Under the pieces are notes generated by a model, which was not told the DNA's origin, searched no databases, and saw only the letters and a program-made list of their open reading frames with translations. From an uncultured Clostridia bacterium (lineage in GTDB: Bacteria > Bacillota > Clostridia > Christensenellales > Borkfalkiaceae): 43,968 bases of DNA. Shown here one piece after another: positions 1 to 25,077 of this stretch. How positions within the stretch are numbered: the stretch's first letter is position 1; every line of letters starts with the position of its first letter. The stretch covers positions 1-43,968 of the forward strand of contig CALVHR010000015.1 of the NCBI GenBank assembly GCA_944328495.1, in the 5' to 3' direction. The translations under genes and the position numbers were made by a program.

Positions 1-25
1 GCACGAGTAGTGCCGCCGGTACCAT

Positions 26-72
26 GCGCTTGAAGCGCCTAATCAAGCCACCGGCTCAGCCGGTGGTACTTG
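26..72. repeat. Two adjacent palindromic hairpins
   Basis: Two inverted repeats lie side by side: GCGCT/AGCGC at 26-38, then CCACCGGCT (48-56) paired with AGCCGGTGG (58-66), flanked by CAAG (44-47) and CTTG (69-72). There is no T-run after either, so they do not look like terminators. They sit directly upstream of the promoter at 86-114. Paired terminal hairpins of this kind are known from IS200/IS605-type ends and REP-like repeats, but no transposase is visible and the window starts here, so the identity is open. Confidence 0.55.
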
Positions 73-85
73 ACTTTGCGCACGC

Positions 86-114
86 TTGCAAAAAAAGAAG
101 TTGTTTGCTATAAT
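86..114 (+). promoter_or_regulatory. Sigma-A promoter of the first membrane protein gene
   Basis: The -35 TTGCAA (86-91) and -10 TATAAT (109-114) are separated by 17 bp. The expected start near 121 would leave only about 12 nt of leader, with the GGGAGG ribosome site (122-127) at the very 5' end of the mRNA. Confidence 0.75.
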
Positions 115-132
115 AAATAGCGGGAGGAAATG

Positions 133-852
133 ATGCGAATCGAATTTTGGAAATTGTTTGCCCAGCAGTGTATCTGCATCGGGATCTTTTTTTCGGTGCT
201 CCTGCTGTCGTGGTATCTGCCGCAGGGAGCGAACATTGCTTTGGCTGTGGTTTTGGGATTGGGCGGTTTTATCGGATATATCGTGTGCAATCAAAAAGAA
301 TTTTTGGACGGATTATGGTTGTTTCCCGCTGTTTTTACGGCGGCGGCGGGATTTACGGCAGGCATTTATTTTTGCGGTTTGGAAAGCGCGTTTTTCGGAA
401 ACTGGAAGTTGTTCGCGGGGGCGGTCGGTCTTGTCGCGCTCGAATGCTTGATATGTCTGCCCGAATTTGCAGGGGCGGGATCGGTTTTGGCGCAGAAAAT
501 CGTCGGGACGGCAGCAGTATGCAGCGCACTTGCCTTTTCGATTCTGTGTTTTTGCCGCTGGAATGCGCCGAACGCCGTCTTTTGGCGGCAGGGAGCGATC
601 TTGTTTTTATTTATGTTTGTCTTTCTGCTGGGGCAGGTCGCATACATATGGCAGGGCGGCGACGTACGCCACAAGATGAATTTATCCTTTTGCGCGGCTT
701 TTTTTGTCGTGCTCTTCGTCGTTTTGTTGATCGTGACGGAGGGAGACGCGGCGGACAGCGTCGGCGACCTGTTTGCAGGGGCGGGGGACGGCGCTTCGGG
801 AGGCAAAAGGAGAAAAAAGGGCAAAGCGGGACGATCGTTCCCGAAACCATGA
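133..852 (+). CDS. Polytopic membrane protein, function unknown
   Basis: A 239-residue protein with about seven hydrophobic segments spread over residues 8-205, followed by a short basic cytoplasmic tail rich in Lys, Arg and Gly. Two in-frame ATGs stand at 130 and 133. GGGAGG at 122-127 lies 5 nt from the second but only 2 nt from the first, so 133 is preferred. I do not recognise a family; Cys and aromatic residues are frequent in the membrane segments. It is monocistronic: its own promoter lies at 86-114 and a strong palindrome follows the stop. Confidence 0.7.
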   Translation: MRIEFWKLFAQQCICIGIFFSVLLLSWYLPQGANIALAVVLGLGGFIGYIVCNQKEFLDGLWLFPAVFTAAAGFTAGIYFCGLESAFFGNWKLFAGAVGLVALECLICLPEFAGAGSVLAQKIVGTAAVCSALAFSILCFCRWNAPNAVFWRQGAILFLFMFVFLLGQVAYIWQGGDVRHKMNLSFCAAFFVVLFVVLLIVTEGDAADSVGDLFAGAGDGASGGKRRKKGKAGRSFPKP

Positions 853-19881: not shown

Positions 19882-20841
19882 ATGAAGAAGTTGTTGGTTG
19901 CCGCAATTTCGGCTTTGCTGGTTGTTGTGCTGACTGTTTCGATGGCGGCATGTTCAAAGGCCCAGCGTGTAAAAGTGATTGACGTTATGTTGACGGGTGA
20001 AGAATATGGTTATTGCGTCGATCAGGACAATACTACATTAATGACTGCGGTGAATGAGCTGATTGTTCAGTTGTGCGGAAACGAGCCTTATAATCCCGAA
20101 GCGCCGAATACAAGTGCTGCAGGTGTTGAATATGACCTGAACGGCGACGGAACGGCTGAAACAGTTACTTTCCATACTTTGTACGAAGCAATGGAGGGCG
20201 AAACGGTTTACAACGTGAAAGATGCATATACGGAGATTCCTTCCGGTAAAACGCGTGAAGAGTGTCTGTTGGTTGCAACAAATGCAGAGTTTGAACCGTT
20301 TGAATTTATGAACGGGGAAAATTTTGCGGGTATTGACATGCACATTGCTAAAATGCTTGCAAACAAACTCGGCAAGACGCTTGTTATCCGCAATATGGAG
20401 TTTGATGTCGTAATCACCGATGTTGAACAGGGAAATTCGGATATTGGAATGGCAGGGCTTACGATCAACCGCGGCAGAGAGGAAATCGTTAGTTTCTCGG
20501 AAGGATATTACACAACGTCGCAGTATCTCGCGGTACTTGAATCGGATACTGCATTTGACAATTGTACGACAGAAGCGGAAGTAGTGGCTGCAATCAACGG
20601 ACTTGGTAAAGTTACGGCTGGTGCGGCTACGGGGCAGACCGGATATTTCTATATTACAGGAAGCACGGATTTTGAATTTGCCGGATTTAAAGACGTAACG
20701 GCGAAAGATTACGATACGATTGCTTTGGCAGTACAAAATCTTTCGGACGGAAAATTGAAATTTGTTGTCGGAGACAGGGATACGCTTGAATCGGCGGTCG
20801 AAGCTATCAATGCAAAAGTCCCCGTTGAGAGCGCAGAATAA
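19882..20841 (+). CDS. Polar amino acid ABC transporter binding lipoprotein, apparently circularly permuted
   Basis: A 319-residue lipoprotein; residues 1-23 are a signal peptide and Cys24 (MAACSK) the lipidated residue. Residues about 129-319 match SBP_bac_3, starting LLVATNAEFEPFEFMNG and running through GMAGLTINRGREEIVSFS to LSDGKLKFVVGD near the end. The segment that normally ends this family (lteEeYgiaVkkgn..Lldavn) is missing from the C-terminus but present at residues 30-64 as VKVIDVMLTGEEYGYCVDQD. A linker with an EF-hand-like DLNGDGTAE loop (85-93) joins the two. It should still form the two-lobed fold. Substrate: a polar amino acid, identity unknown. Confidence 0.9.
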   Translation: MKKLLVAAISALLVVVLTVSMAACSKAQRVKVIDVMLTGEEYGYCVDQDNTTLMTAVNELIVQLCGNEPYNPEAPNTSAAGVEYDLNGDGTAETVTFHTLYEAMEGETVYNVKDAYTEIPSGKTREECLLVATNAEFEPFEFMNGENFAGIDMHIAKMLANKLGKTLVIRNMEFDVVITDVEQGNSDIGMAGLTINRGREEIVSFSEGYYTTSQYLAVLESDTAFDNCTTEAEVVAAINGLGKVTAGAATGQTGYFYITGSTDFEFAGFKDVTAKDYDTIALAVQNLSDGKLKFVVGDRDTLESAVEAINAKVPVESAE

Positions 20842-20868: not shown

Positions 20869-21564
20869 ATGCGGGTAATGTGGGAAGCATTTTACGATCA
20901 ATTTATCGTGCAGGGCGGCTATAAAAACGTACTGCTCGGACTCCGCAATACTTTGATTATTGCGATAGCCGGTTTGGTTATCGGTATTATTATCGGTACG
21001 ATCGTGGCGAGTGTACAGGTAGCCGGTAAGCGGAATAAAGTTGCAAGAGTTTTTGCTGCCGTTGGGGATGTTTACACCGGTATTTTCCGCGGTACGCCGA
21101 TCATTGTACAACTTTTGATTTTCCATTATATTATTTTTTCAGGAATCAATATCGACGGATTATTGGAGGCGATTATTGTTTTCGGGCTCAATAGCGGTGC
21201 CTATGTGGCCGAAATCATGCGCGGCGGTATCCTTTCCGTGGATATCGGACAAATGGAAGCAGGCAGGACACTCGGTTTATCTTATCCGACGACGATGATC
21301 AAAATTGTATATCCGCAGGCGATTAAGAACGTGATCCCCACGCTCGGGAACGAGCTGATCGCGCTCACAAAAGATACATCGGTAGCGGGGTATGTTGCCA
21401 CGATGGATTTAACGCGTGCATTTCGATTGATTGCGAGTGCAAACTATGAATACATTATCCCGTATTTGATGCTTGCCCTTGTTTATCTTGTTATAATTTT
21501 GATATTTACTTTTATAATCCGTTTTGTGGAAAGGAGGTTGCGCAAGAGTGAAAGAAGAAGTTAA
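20869..21564 (+). CDS. Polar amino acid ABC transporter permease (HisM/GlnP type)
   Basis: A 231-residue permease with five predicted membrane helices. The N-terminal consensus [18 protein letters not shown] and the EAA loop [20 protein letters not shown] near residue 130, which contacts the ATPase, are clear. [10 protein letters not shown] is also typical. It lies 27 nt after the binding-protein gene. Its last 17 nt overlap the ATPase gene, whose AGGAGG site is inside this gene. Codon choice is AT-richer than in most of the window, as in the binding-protein gene. Confidence 0.93.
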
Positions 21565-22438
21565 CGCGCAGGCTTCCGAAGCGATGGCGGAAGAGTTGCA
21601 CACGGCGATGATCGAGGTAGAGCATCTCACAAAGAAGTTTGGCGATCTGTTGGTTTTGGACGATATCAGCGAAAAGATCGAGCAAGGCGAAAAAGTTGCG
21701 ATCATCGGACCTTCCGGAAGCGGAAAGAGTACGTTTTTGCGCTGCTTGAACGTATTGGAAGATCCGACGAGCGGTGCCGTTTATTTTGAAGGCGCGAATC
21801 TGTGCGATCTTCGCGTGGATATCAATTTGCATCGCCGCCGCATGGGCATGGTGTTTCAGCAGTTCAATCTGTTCAACAACATGAACGTGCTCAAAAACAT
21901 TACGTTGGCACCTGTGCATGTGGGGGTGCAGGATCTGCGCCGCATCAAGCGCAGGAATCTGCGTACGAAGATTTGCAATCTGTTCCGCAAAAAGGACAAG
22001 AAAGCAGCGCTGGAACCTGTAGAAACGACGGTCCGTCAGATCAAAGAAGAGGCAAAGGAAAACGCGATGCGGCTTTTAAAGCGCATCGGGCTTGCAGACA
22101 AAGCGGAGGTATATCCTTCCACCTTGTCGGGAGGACAGCGCCAGCGTATTGCGATCGTGCGCGCGCTTGCGATGAATCCGAAGGTTATGCTGTTCGATGA
22201 GCCTACCAGTGCGTTGGATCCTGAAATGGTCGGGGAAGTGTTAGAGCTGATCAAGGAATTGGCGGACGAAGGCATGACGATGGTCATCGTTACGCATGAA
22301 ATGGGATTTGCGCGTGAAGTAGCCACGCGTGTCCTTTTCATGGACGGCGGCAAGATCGTCGAGCAAGGGCCTCCCGCCCAGGTGTTCGGCGCGCCGAAGA
22401 ACGATCGGCTCAAAGATTTTTTATCCAAAGTTTTGTAA
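21548..22438 (+). CDS. Polar amino acid ABC transporter ATPase with a basic insert
   Basis: A 296-residue ATPase (GlnQ/HisP type) if started at GTG 21548, which has AGGAGG (21532-21537) upstream; ATG 21524 lacks such a site and ATG 21584 would also be possible. Walker A is [10 protein letters not shown], the Q-loop [10 protein letters not shown], the signature LSGGQRQR and Walker [13 protein letters not shown]. Between the Q-loop region and the signature there are about 35 extra residues (126-167), very basic at first ([20 protein letters not shown]). This insert falls in the helical subdomain that meets the permease. Overlaps the permease by 17 nt. Confidence 0.93.
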
Positions 22439-22598: not shown

Positions 22599-23834
22599 AT
22601 GAAAAAATCGCTCATTCGCAATTATGCGAAGCTGATCGCCCGCGTGGGCGGGAACGTACAGCATGGACAACGTGTCGTGATTACGGCGCAGACAGATCAA
22701 CAGCCGTTCGTGGCGGTTCTTGCGGAAGAATGTTACCGTGCAGGGGCCGCGGACGTTTCGGTTGAGTGGCAGGATCAGCGCATCGACAAGCTTGCGGCGC
22801 GGTTTGAAACGGTGCGCGAGCTCGGAGCGGTGACGCCGTGGGAAGAAGCGAAATATGCGTATCGCGCGCAGACTCTTCCCGTTACGATCAAATTGCTCTC
22901 GGCGGATCCGGACGGCATGCAGGGAGCGAACCGCGAAAAGATCACGCTGGCAGCGATGGCGCGATCGGCGATCACAAAGCCGTATACCGATGCGATGATC
23001 AATCGTCATCAGTGGTGTGTGGCGGCGTTGCCTTCGGCGGGATGGGCGAAAAAGATTTTTCCCGATGAGCGTGCAAATTCGGCGGTCGAAAGGCTGTGGG
23101 AAGTTATTTTAAGCGTATGCCGCGCAGACGGAAAAGATCCGCTTACGGACTGGATGTGGCACAACCGCGCGTTGCGAGATAAGTGCGACAAGATCAATGC
23201 ACTGAATTTGCGCGCATTGGAATATAAATCATCCAACGGGACAAACTTGCGGGTGGGACTGATACCGCAGGCGAAGTTTATAGCGGGCAAAAAAAATACC
23301 GCAGACGGAATATATTTTAATCCGAACATTCCTACCGAAGAGTGTTTTACCACTCCGATGCGCGGAGAGGCGGAGGGGATCGTGTATGCGGTCAAGCCGC
23401 TTTCCTACGGCGGAGAACTGATCGAAGATTTTTGGATCCGTTTTTCGCAAGGGAAAGTGAGCGATCTGGGAGCAAGGAAAAATGCCGCGCTTTTGGAAAA
23501 GATCGTGGGCATGGACGAAGGTGCGGCATATTTGGGCGAAGCGGCGCTCGTGCCGTACGATTCGCCCATAAACAGCACGGGAATCCTGTTTTACAATACG
23601 CTTTTTGATGAAAATGCCTGTTGTCATCTTGCGCTGGGCAGGGGATATACGAACACGATCGAAGGCTTTGAAAAGATGGAGCATTCGGATTTTGCCGAAC
23701 TGGGGGTCAACGATTCTTCCCAGCATGTGGATTTCATGATCGGCAGTGAAGATCTGAACATAACGGGTGTCACGAAAACGGGGGAACGTATCCCGGTATT
23801 TGTGAACGGAACGTGGAGCGCGGCGCTGCGCTGA
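22599..23834 (+). CDS. M29 family aminopeptidase (copy 1)
   Basis: A 411-residue metallo-aminopeptidase of family M29 (AmpS/PepS/aminopeptidase T), which removes N-terminal residues from peptides with a two-metal centre. Family blocks are EECFTTPMRGEAEGIVYAVK near residue 247, GMDEGAAYLGEAALVP near 304, LFYNTLFDENACCHLALGRG near 330, and DFMIGSEDLNITGV near 377. No signal peptide, so cytoplasmic. It is followed after 10 nt by a paralogue of almost equal length. The ribosome site is modest (AAAGGA). Confidence 0.93.
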   Translation: MKKSLIRNYAKLIARVGGNVQHGQRVVITAQTDQQPFVAVLAEECYRAGAADVSVEWQDQRIDKLAARFETVRELGAVTPWEEAKYAYRAQTLPVTIKLLSADPDGMQGANREKITLAAMARSAITKPYTDAMINRHQWCVAALPSAGWAKKIFPDERANSAVERLWEVILSVCRADGKDPLTDWMWHNRALRDKCDKINALNLRALEYKSSNGTNLRVGLIPQAKFIAGKKNTADGIYFNPNIPTEECFTTPMRGEAEGIVYAVKPLSYGGELIEDFWIRFSQGKVSDLGARKNAALLEKIVGMDEGAAYLGEAALVPYDSPINSTGILFYNTLFDENACCHLALGRGYTNTIEGFEKMEHSDFAELGVNDSSQHVDFMIGSEDLNITGVTKTGERIPVFVNGTWSAALR

Positions 23835-23844
23835 GGGAAAGGCA

Positions 23845-25077
23845 ATGCAAAAAACGGTATTGAAAAATTATGCGAAGCTGCTTGCGCGCGTCGGGCTGAA
23901 CGTGCAGAAAGGGCAGGAAGTAATTATCGTTGCGGAACTGGATCAGACGGAATTTGTTGCATATTGTGCGGAGGAATGCTACCGCGCGGGGGCGTCGAAA
24001 GTGCGCGTCGAATGGACGAGTCAGCCGCTTGCGCGTCTGGGTGCACAATTCCGTTCCGAAAAGGTCATGGGGGAAGTATTGCCGTGGCAGGAAGAAAAGC
24101 TCCGTCAAGAAGTGCATACTCTCCCGGCGCGGCTGTATTTGGACAGCGAAGATCCCGACGGAATGAACGGTATCGATGCGGAAAAATACGCGCGCGCGGT
24201 ACAGGCGCGGCAGCAGATCATCAAGCCGTATCGCGATAAAATGGAAAACCGCTATCAATGGTGTATAGCGGCGGTACCCGGCAGAGCGTGGGCGAAAAAA
24301 GTATTTCCGAAAGATACTTCTTCCATGGCGGAAGAGAAACTTTGGCGTGCGATTCTTTCGTCGTCGCGGGCATTGGAGGGGAATCCCGTTGCCAATTGGC
24401 TGGAACATGACCGCGAGTTGGAGGCGCGCTGTGCTTATCTCAATGCATTGCGGCTCCGTTCGCTGGTGTATCGCGGGGACAACGGTACAGATCTTCGTGT
24501 CGGCCTGATGGACGAGGGCGTTTTCGCAGGCGGAGGCGAAAGTACGCTTGCGGGCATATATTTTAATCCGAACATCCCGTCCGAAGAAGTGTACACGACG
24601 CCGATGCGCGGGGAGGCGGAAGGAATCGTCTATTCGACGAAGCCGCTTTCTTGGCAGGGACAGCTTATCCGCAATTTTTCGGTGCGCTTTTCGGAAGGGA
24701 AGGCGGTGGAAGTGCACGCGGCGCAGGGCGAAAGTGTTTTAAAGAAGATGATCGGCATGGACGAAGGCGCGGCATATCTCGGAGAATGTGCGCTTGTTCC
24801 GCATCGTTCGCCCATCAGTGACAGCCGCATCCTTTTCTATAATACGCTCTTTGACGAAAACGCCGCATGTCACCTTGCATTGGGCAGAGGTTTTTCCAAT
24901 TGTCTGCGCGGGTATGAGGACATGACGGAAGAGCAGATCCGATCGGCGGGAGTGAACGATTCGATGATTCATACGGATTTTATGATCGGAAACGATGCGC
25001 TTGACATTGACGGCGTGACACAAAGCGGAGAGCGCGTTCCCTTGTTCCGTGAAGGGAATTGGGCATTTCGCATATAA
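23845..25077 (+). CDS. M29 family aminopeptidase (copy 2)
   Basis: A 410-residue paralogue of the preceding gene, roughly half identical by eye over its whole length. The same metal-ligand blocks are kept: EEVYTTPMRGEAEGIVYSTK, GMDEGAAYLGECALVP, LFYNTLFDENAACHLALGRG and DFMIGNDALDIDGV. Both copies therefore look active. The intergenic gap of 10 nt implies one mRNA; GAGGGAAAGG at 23832-23841 serves as ribosome site. Differences lie mainly in residues 85-200, so substrate preference may differ. Confidence 0.93.
   Translation: MQKTVLKNYAKLLARVGLNVQKGQEVIIVAELDQTEFVAYCAEECYRAGASKVRVEWTSQPLARLGAQFRSEKVMGEVLPWQEEKLRQEVHTLPARLYLDSEDPDGMNGIDAEKYARAVQARQQIIKPYRDKMENRYQWCIAAVPGRAWAKKVFPKDTSSMAEEKLWRAILSSSRALEGNPVANWLEHDRELEARCAYLNALRLRSLVYRGDNGTDLRVGLMDEGVFAGGGESTLAGIYFNPNIPSEEVYTTPMRGEAEGIVYSTKPLSWQGQLIRNFSVRFSEGKAVEVHAAQGESVLKKMIGMDEGAAYLGECALVPHRSPISDSRILFYNTLFDENAACHLALGRGFSNCLRGYEDMTEEQIRSAGVNDSMIHTDFMIGNDALDIDGVTQSGERVPLFREGNWAFRI

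Follow-up and report, generated by a model that had tools for sequence, protein, structure and literature searches.

The window, the whole stretch of 43,968 nucleotides analysed here, encodes a lipoprotein that, judged by its sequence, is a member of the SBP_bac_3 family by descent and a circularly permuted variant by topology. On the same evidence, the moved segment is the last strand of lobe 2 together with the hinge strand and the next helix, and the chain ends within lobe 2. Evolution seems to have re-cut this binding protein several times, with cuts at other points of the fold in related bacteria, and this recurrent permutation with its several cuts and a likely reversal is more surprising than the window case alone. 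A permuted two-lobe receptor, a permutation repeated at five places and a probable reversion are, taken jointly, very probably the best explanation of the observations.

Gene, operon and layout of the chain

The coding sequence is intact in the open reading frame reading, with an ATG at 19882, a ribosome-site-like GAGAGG upstream of it and a stop ending at 20841, which leaves a gap of just 27 bases to the permease ATG at 20869. Since the frame is intact and the permease starts this close to the stop, a C-terminal segment hidden downstream by a frameshift is excluded, and the reservation in the preliminary description that a normal C-terminal segment might be recovered near 20841 can be dropped. 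Many genomes of the sample are split into tens to hundreds of contigs, as would suit an assembly or frameshift artefact; the short distance to the permease in the window, the existence of 80 distinct proteins of this order and the presence of one-contig genomes among their sources (G522 for L068, G550 for L075) leave this explanation a negligible probability. The features of the operon and of the permuted chain are as follows.

19882..20841, + strand: coding sequence of the circularly permuted SBP_bac_3 lipoprotein, 319 amino acids (open reading frame, Pfam, canonical-only profile, rotation test)
19882..19953, + strand: signal peptide with lipobox; lipidation presumed at Cys24 (19951-19953), which does not vary across the 19 rows of alignment A1 (sequence, A1 alignment)
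19969..19989, + strand: residues 30-36, strand that closes lobe 2 in canonical proteins and comes first here (profile alignment; strand in the model)
19990..20022, + strand: residues 37-47, hinge-crossing segment LTGEEYGYCVD (A1 and GlnH alignments)
20032..20076, + strand: residues 51-65, helix of the canonical C-terminal segment, lobe 1 (profile, model)
20134..20160, + strand: residues 85-93, calcium-loop-like insertion DLNGDGTAE, Ca2+ binding putative (A1 alignment)
20170..20196, + strand: residues 97-105, helix that probably corresponds to the canonical terminal helix (A1 alignment, model)
20197..20256, + strand: residues 106-125, linker from the canonical C-terminus to the canonical N-terminus (alignment, rotation test)
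20257..20517, + strand: residues 126-212, the portion of lobe 1 that is N-terminal in canonical proteins, with N134, F137, F174, T194 and R199 at ligand positions (Pfam, profile)
20518..20817, + strand: residues 213-312, hinge 1 followed by lobe 2 lacking its final strand; D298 is aligned to GlnH D157 (profile)
20869..21564, + strand: permease, BPD_transp_1 (open reading frame and Pfam)
21524..22438, + strand: ABC ATPase, start codon uncertain (open reading frame calls)

The cognate permease and ATPase are thus present beside the binding protein. Directly 3' of the transporter operon, two M29 aminopeptidase paralogues adjoin each other (22599-23834 and 23845-25077).

SBP_bac_3 (PF00497) is the best family among the Pfam and NCBIfam matches of the window protein (73.3 bits in Pfam against a gathering cut-off of 26.4), and no sugar-receptor family is found among these matches. 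The Pfam match is confined to residues 129-241, corresponding to profile positions 1-98 of 132; only this part is recognised because the order of the segments is permuted. The canonical start at LLVATNAEFEPFEFM begins at residue 129, as the preliminary description had it, and the C-terminal pattern of the family was likewise located at residues 30-64 (VKVIDVMLTGEEYGYCVDQDNTTLMTAVNELI). The presumably lipidated Cys24 lies six residues ahead of the last strand of lobe 2. L37, E40 and Y42 are invariant across the 19 rows of the A1 alignment, Y42 being aligned to GlnH Y185. Two lengths given earlier had to be amended. The chain ends about 21 rather than 19 residues after LSDGKLKFVVGD, and the linker of 65 residues, according to the A1 alignment and the secondary structure of the model, probably comprises an inserted hairpin that contains the DLNGDGTAE loop (85-93), then the terminal helix of the segment (97-105), so that the true linker would measure about 20 residues (106-125). 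Counterparts of the loop (DLDGDG, DFDGNG, DYDGDG, DYNGDG) occur in the close relatives L001, L007, L008 and L010, and the insertion is absent in the other A1 rows.

Tests of the segment order and predicted structure

The segment order was assessed with a profile of 53 canonical-order rows, from which all permuted rows and also the four canonical rows nesting among permuted ones were left out. Residues 21-66 of the window protein correspond to profile positions 165-210 (23.7 bits) and residues 124-308 to positions 3-170 (133.7 bits), which is the reverse of the canonical order with its C-terminal segment last. As a separate piece the moved segment scored 24.5 bits, a value reached by none of 5000 shuffled sequences (4571 scored, best 16.6). 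For the last 60 residues the match falls on profile positions 130-172 and not on the C-terminus, so the canonical tail is absent from the chain end, as had been noticed before. When every rotation of the mature chain was scored, the best single match rose from 134.1 to 157.9 bits, a gain of 23.8, with the chain opened in the linker. Among the eight proteins tested in this way, gains of 51.2 (L068), 107.1 (L058), 148.8 (L096), 80.2 (L166) and 20.8 bits (L067) were obtained for other permuted proteins and of 0 for the canonical controls L055 and L054. Scanned at a threshold of 10 bits, all single-unit relatives contain one copy of the moved segment, and it is doubled in tandem arrays.

The swapped segment of the window protein is among the weaker ones of the family. 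With phmmer against PDB chains, a second stretch was matched out of order in 4prs (query 21-70 to 169-217, 7.2 bits), 6svf (22-67 to 171-216, 6.5 bits) and 4zv1 (29-65 to 182-218, 7.0 bits), each weak singly and all among the matches listed. The search with the segment alone that had been proposed gave a divided result: against the PDB it was not significant (4zv1 at E=1.5, ranked below an unrelated chain at 0.41), whereas the 53-row canonical profile recognised the segment at the 24.5 bits given above. A profile of eight permuted proteins (A2) matched AncQR (4zv1) in two stretches, 98-277 to 11-176 and 24-81 to 176-233, the second with an E value of 3.5e-9, and runs colinear across the SBD1/SBD2 junction of the GlnPQ tandem (6h30). 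An N-terminal block that is an unrelated or decaying extension of a truncated binding protein would explain why Pfam is blind to it and why the segment alone lacks a significant PDB match. This explanation was rejected by the shuffle control and the rotation gain and is further contradicted by the invariant L37, E40 and Y42, by the retained ligand positions and by five relatives (L001, L007-L010) which keep the segment order of the window at 55-76% identity; it is therefore considered highly improbable.

AlphaFold failed completely without helper rows (pLDDT 37.9). With helper rows, in which canonical C-terminal pieces were aligned to the N-terminus, a confident model was obtained (pLDDT 89.2, pTM 0.78; means of 81-94 in blocks of mature residues 1-40), which is not an independent proof, since the pieces were pre-placed and the other four helper-row models reached 71.5-74.1. 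In Foldseek, superposition of the model on whole receptors was poor (among the 50 matches listed, rmsd 5.6-11.8 Å and TM-score per model length 0.30-0.42). Single lobes superposed better (6gpm, 1.8 Å over 80 residues; 6gpc, 3.5 Å over 94), and an opening of the lobes may account for the poor fit to whole receptors. No permuted order was seen in solved structures (60 of 70 and 60 of 91 matches listed). The longest of the 50 VIA-align matches listed was PfVFT1 of Plasmodium falciparum (5jkq_B; 205 residues, 3.6 Å, range 25..289 of model m5ce07e8cb370), at 6% identity; it possibly has a connectivity in common with the model.

The circular permutation proposed for the window protein is supported by the swapped profile matches with their shuffle control, the rotation test, the single copy of the segment and the confident helper-row model. 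By sequence, packing of the moved segment within its own chain is indistinguishable from packing in a neighbouring one, and the length of the linker may permit either, as in a domain-swapped form in which the N-terminal segment complements a second chain in an obligate dimer. A specific swap would not predict rotations at several cut sites with linkers that span roughly 9 to 31 residues (script boundaries), and the single-chain model has a pTM of 0.78; the swapped form is very unlikely. In the preferred reading, packing within the same molecule, the protein would have the normal two-lobe SBP_bac_3 flytrap fold with new ends, the canonical C- and N-termini joined through the linker and the chain opened in lobe 2 between a helix and the last strand, near GlnH T167.

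Relatives, cut sites and trees

The genomes searched comprised 151 of the window's family, 200 of the order, 291 of the class and 348 of the phylum, plus fetched stretches; most loci are best matches to permuted queries (L001-L201) and the sample is hence not random. Several cut sites are shown by sequence. After removal of duplicates, the canonical profile assigned 80 distinct proteins to cut A (near GlnH T167, as in the window), 14 to B1 (near 103-109), 16 to B2 (near 96, plus the permease-fused L129) and six to D (near 123-129; the match of L178 is weak). Sixty-six proteins were read as canonical by the profile, including the single C protein (L067, genome G263), in which the cut near residue 20 is clear with profile A1 and the first strand is moved to the C-terminus; no further cut C was recognised among the matches in six genomes of its genus. 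Tandems were represented by six permuted open reading frames from four genes and one canonical tandem. The suspicion that the window protein may stand for a family was accordingly an understatement.

Of the 30 loci fetched in the initial search of the family, the window included, 29 were of type A and one, L032, was canonical; the other SBP_bac_3 protein of the window's genome (L004) is canonical as well. Among the matches listed, all A loci examined lie within the window's class, and one B2 (L114), three D (L165-L167) and one tandem array (L196) were found outside it in the same phylum. Viral contigs, scanned for alignment depth, gave two loci (L038 and L232). On plasmids, 455 records match L068; of the best ten, one covers 80% or more of it, at 24% identity and over two annotated genes, and a clear permuted full-length match is absent from these ten.

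For the trees, all rows were put in canonical order beforehand. The 159-row tree (one of 160 rows dropped) requires 15 changes among the five orders, with groups named after the trees had been seen and many branches weak. The window's clade of 69 rows (support 99/95), taken from a tree of 76 of the 160 rows, comprises 51 A, 13 B1, one C and four canonical proteins, and the AU test rejects the grouping of its permuted rows into one clade without the canonical ones (p 1.6e-4). In a 54-row tree, single origins of cut A (p 3.7e-86) and cut B2 (p 7.4e-6) were rejected too. In a third subfamily (52 rows), which takes in L004 through a long branch, type A appears in four or more separate places, some on weak branches. 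Several origins are thus supported by the trees. That each cut arose only once, the trees being misleading and the nested canonical proteins errors of them, might be argued from the short and divergent rows, the often weak branches and the post hoc naming of groups; the AU tests and close pairs of unlike order, such as L089 (A) and L145 (canonical) with 75% identity over 226 columns, make a single origin unlikely.

Two canonical proteins within an A clade, L054 and L056 from two genomes of one genus, carry tails (INSFFDGTADYTYTNPAR and INSFFDGTATFTYTNP) resembling the linkers of A relatives, e.g. INSFFD-GTATFEYTN in L042. Such tails are probably best explained by reversion from the permuted order; a canonical tail that later turned into a linker is a possible explanation. 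The other two nested canonical proteins, L055 and L032, lack a linker-like tail.

Origin, function and known systems

Engineered permuted receptors are known, and natural circular permutation is usually described for pairs of distant relatives. In the present case, a single receptor family contains permuted and canonical relatives of up to 75% identity and several cuts of one fold, as well as candidate intermediates, the phase-shifted tandem arrays, and a probable reversal. Since close relatives, cuts and intermediates occur together, old questions become testable: how permutations originate, whether moved ends are compatible with fold and function, and whether the position of a membrane tether makes a difference to an ABC receptor. 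Among the open-licence PMC papers listed, judged by titles and abstract openings, none reported a natural permutation in SBP_bac_3.

Four loci (L194-L197) encode large single-chain transporters in which an array of two to four tandem SBP_bac_3 units is fused to a permease, in L194 also to an ATPase. The arrays are phase-shifted: they begin in lobe 2 and stop, ahead of the permease, once half of lobe 1, its first, has been passed. Such an out-of-phase array is what the model of permutation by duplication and trimming predicts, as outlined in extracts of PMC3320104, in which natural permuted members of other families (DNA methyltransferases, saposin/swaposin) are explained in this way. The most likely route to the permuted receptors would be a tandem duplication with fusion, after which both ends were trimmed, and permutation would have happened repeatedly, at five sites of the fold (one seen once) in a large, mainly clostridial set, with probably at least one return to canonical order. 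A protein with the moved segment at both ends was not found among the single-unit open reading frames scanned at 10 bits. L183, considered as a partial intermediate on the basis of profile A1, was rejected: its N-terminal stretch is of low complexity, and with the canonical profile it comes out as canonical. More broadly, it is rather likely that the SBP_bac_3 receptors of Clostridia and relatives form an evolutionary ring in which tandem fusion and trimming have re-cut the fold over and over, at five places and both forwards and backwards, with the ligand site and the permease partner constant; if so, the lipid anchor has travelled round the protein.

A naturally permuted lipoprotein ABC receptor was described in Treponema pallidum (Tp0684, MglB-2) and proposed as ‘Cluster Bc’, an adaptation to tethering being raised as a possibility (PMC4990184). 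Like the window protein, it is a circularly permuted lipoprotein receptor, with relatives in Gram-positive bacteria, many of them from the gut, but it is a sugar receptor with the type I / cluster B fold, for which a single permutation is described. The window protein is not of this descent, and its SBP_bac_3 family shows tandem arrays, five cut sites and more than one origin. GlnPQ (6h30; PMC8025302) resembles the arrays in its tandem SBP_bac_3 domains linked to a permease; these domains are in canonical phase, whereas the window protein is a single domain encoded apart from its permease, and at least two receptor domains fused to a permease were found in L194-L197. With GlnH of E. coli and other SBP_bac_3 receptors the window protein has the fold family, the ligand positions and the operon in common and differs in segment order.

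Ligand positions and operon are kept, as shown by sequence. Of the positions presumed to contact the ligand in GlnH, F137, F174, A191, G192, T194, R199 and D298 of the window protein agree in the alignment, and four differ (D10 to N134, K115 to A249, G119 to T253, H156 to G297). A permease is located downstream or fused among L001-L096 in 69 of 71 A, all ten B1, the one B2, the one C and six of seven canonical loci, the exceptions being L084, L091 and L055, the last with 65 bases left. Because ligand positions and permease operon are retained, the window protein is best read as an ordinary amino-acid receptor and should work as such with its tether moved to lobe 2. It would serve as the lipid-anchored receptor of a type I ABC importer whose binding protein, permease and ATPase are encoded in one operon, would bind an alpha-amino acid between its two lobes and engage the permease in the usual way, and its membrane tether would have left lobe 1 for a place on lobe 2 close to the hinge. 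As the preliminary description suggested, this shift may alter the way in which the protein is presented to the permease. Two A-type receptors (L031 and L034) are fused in frame to a permease, the C-terminus in lobe 2 leading into the membrane domain.
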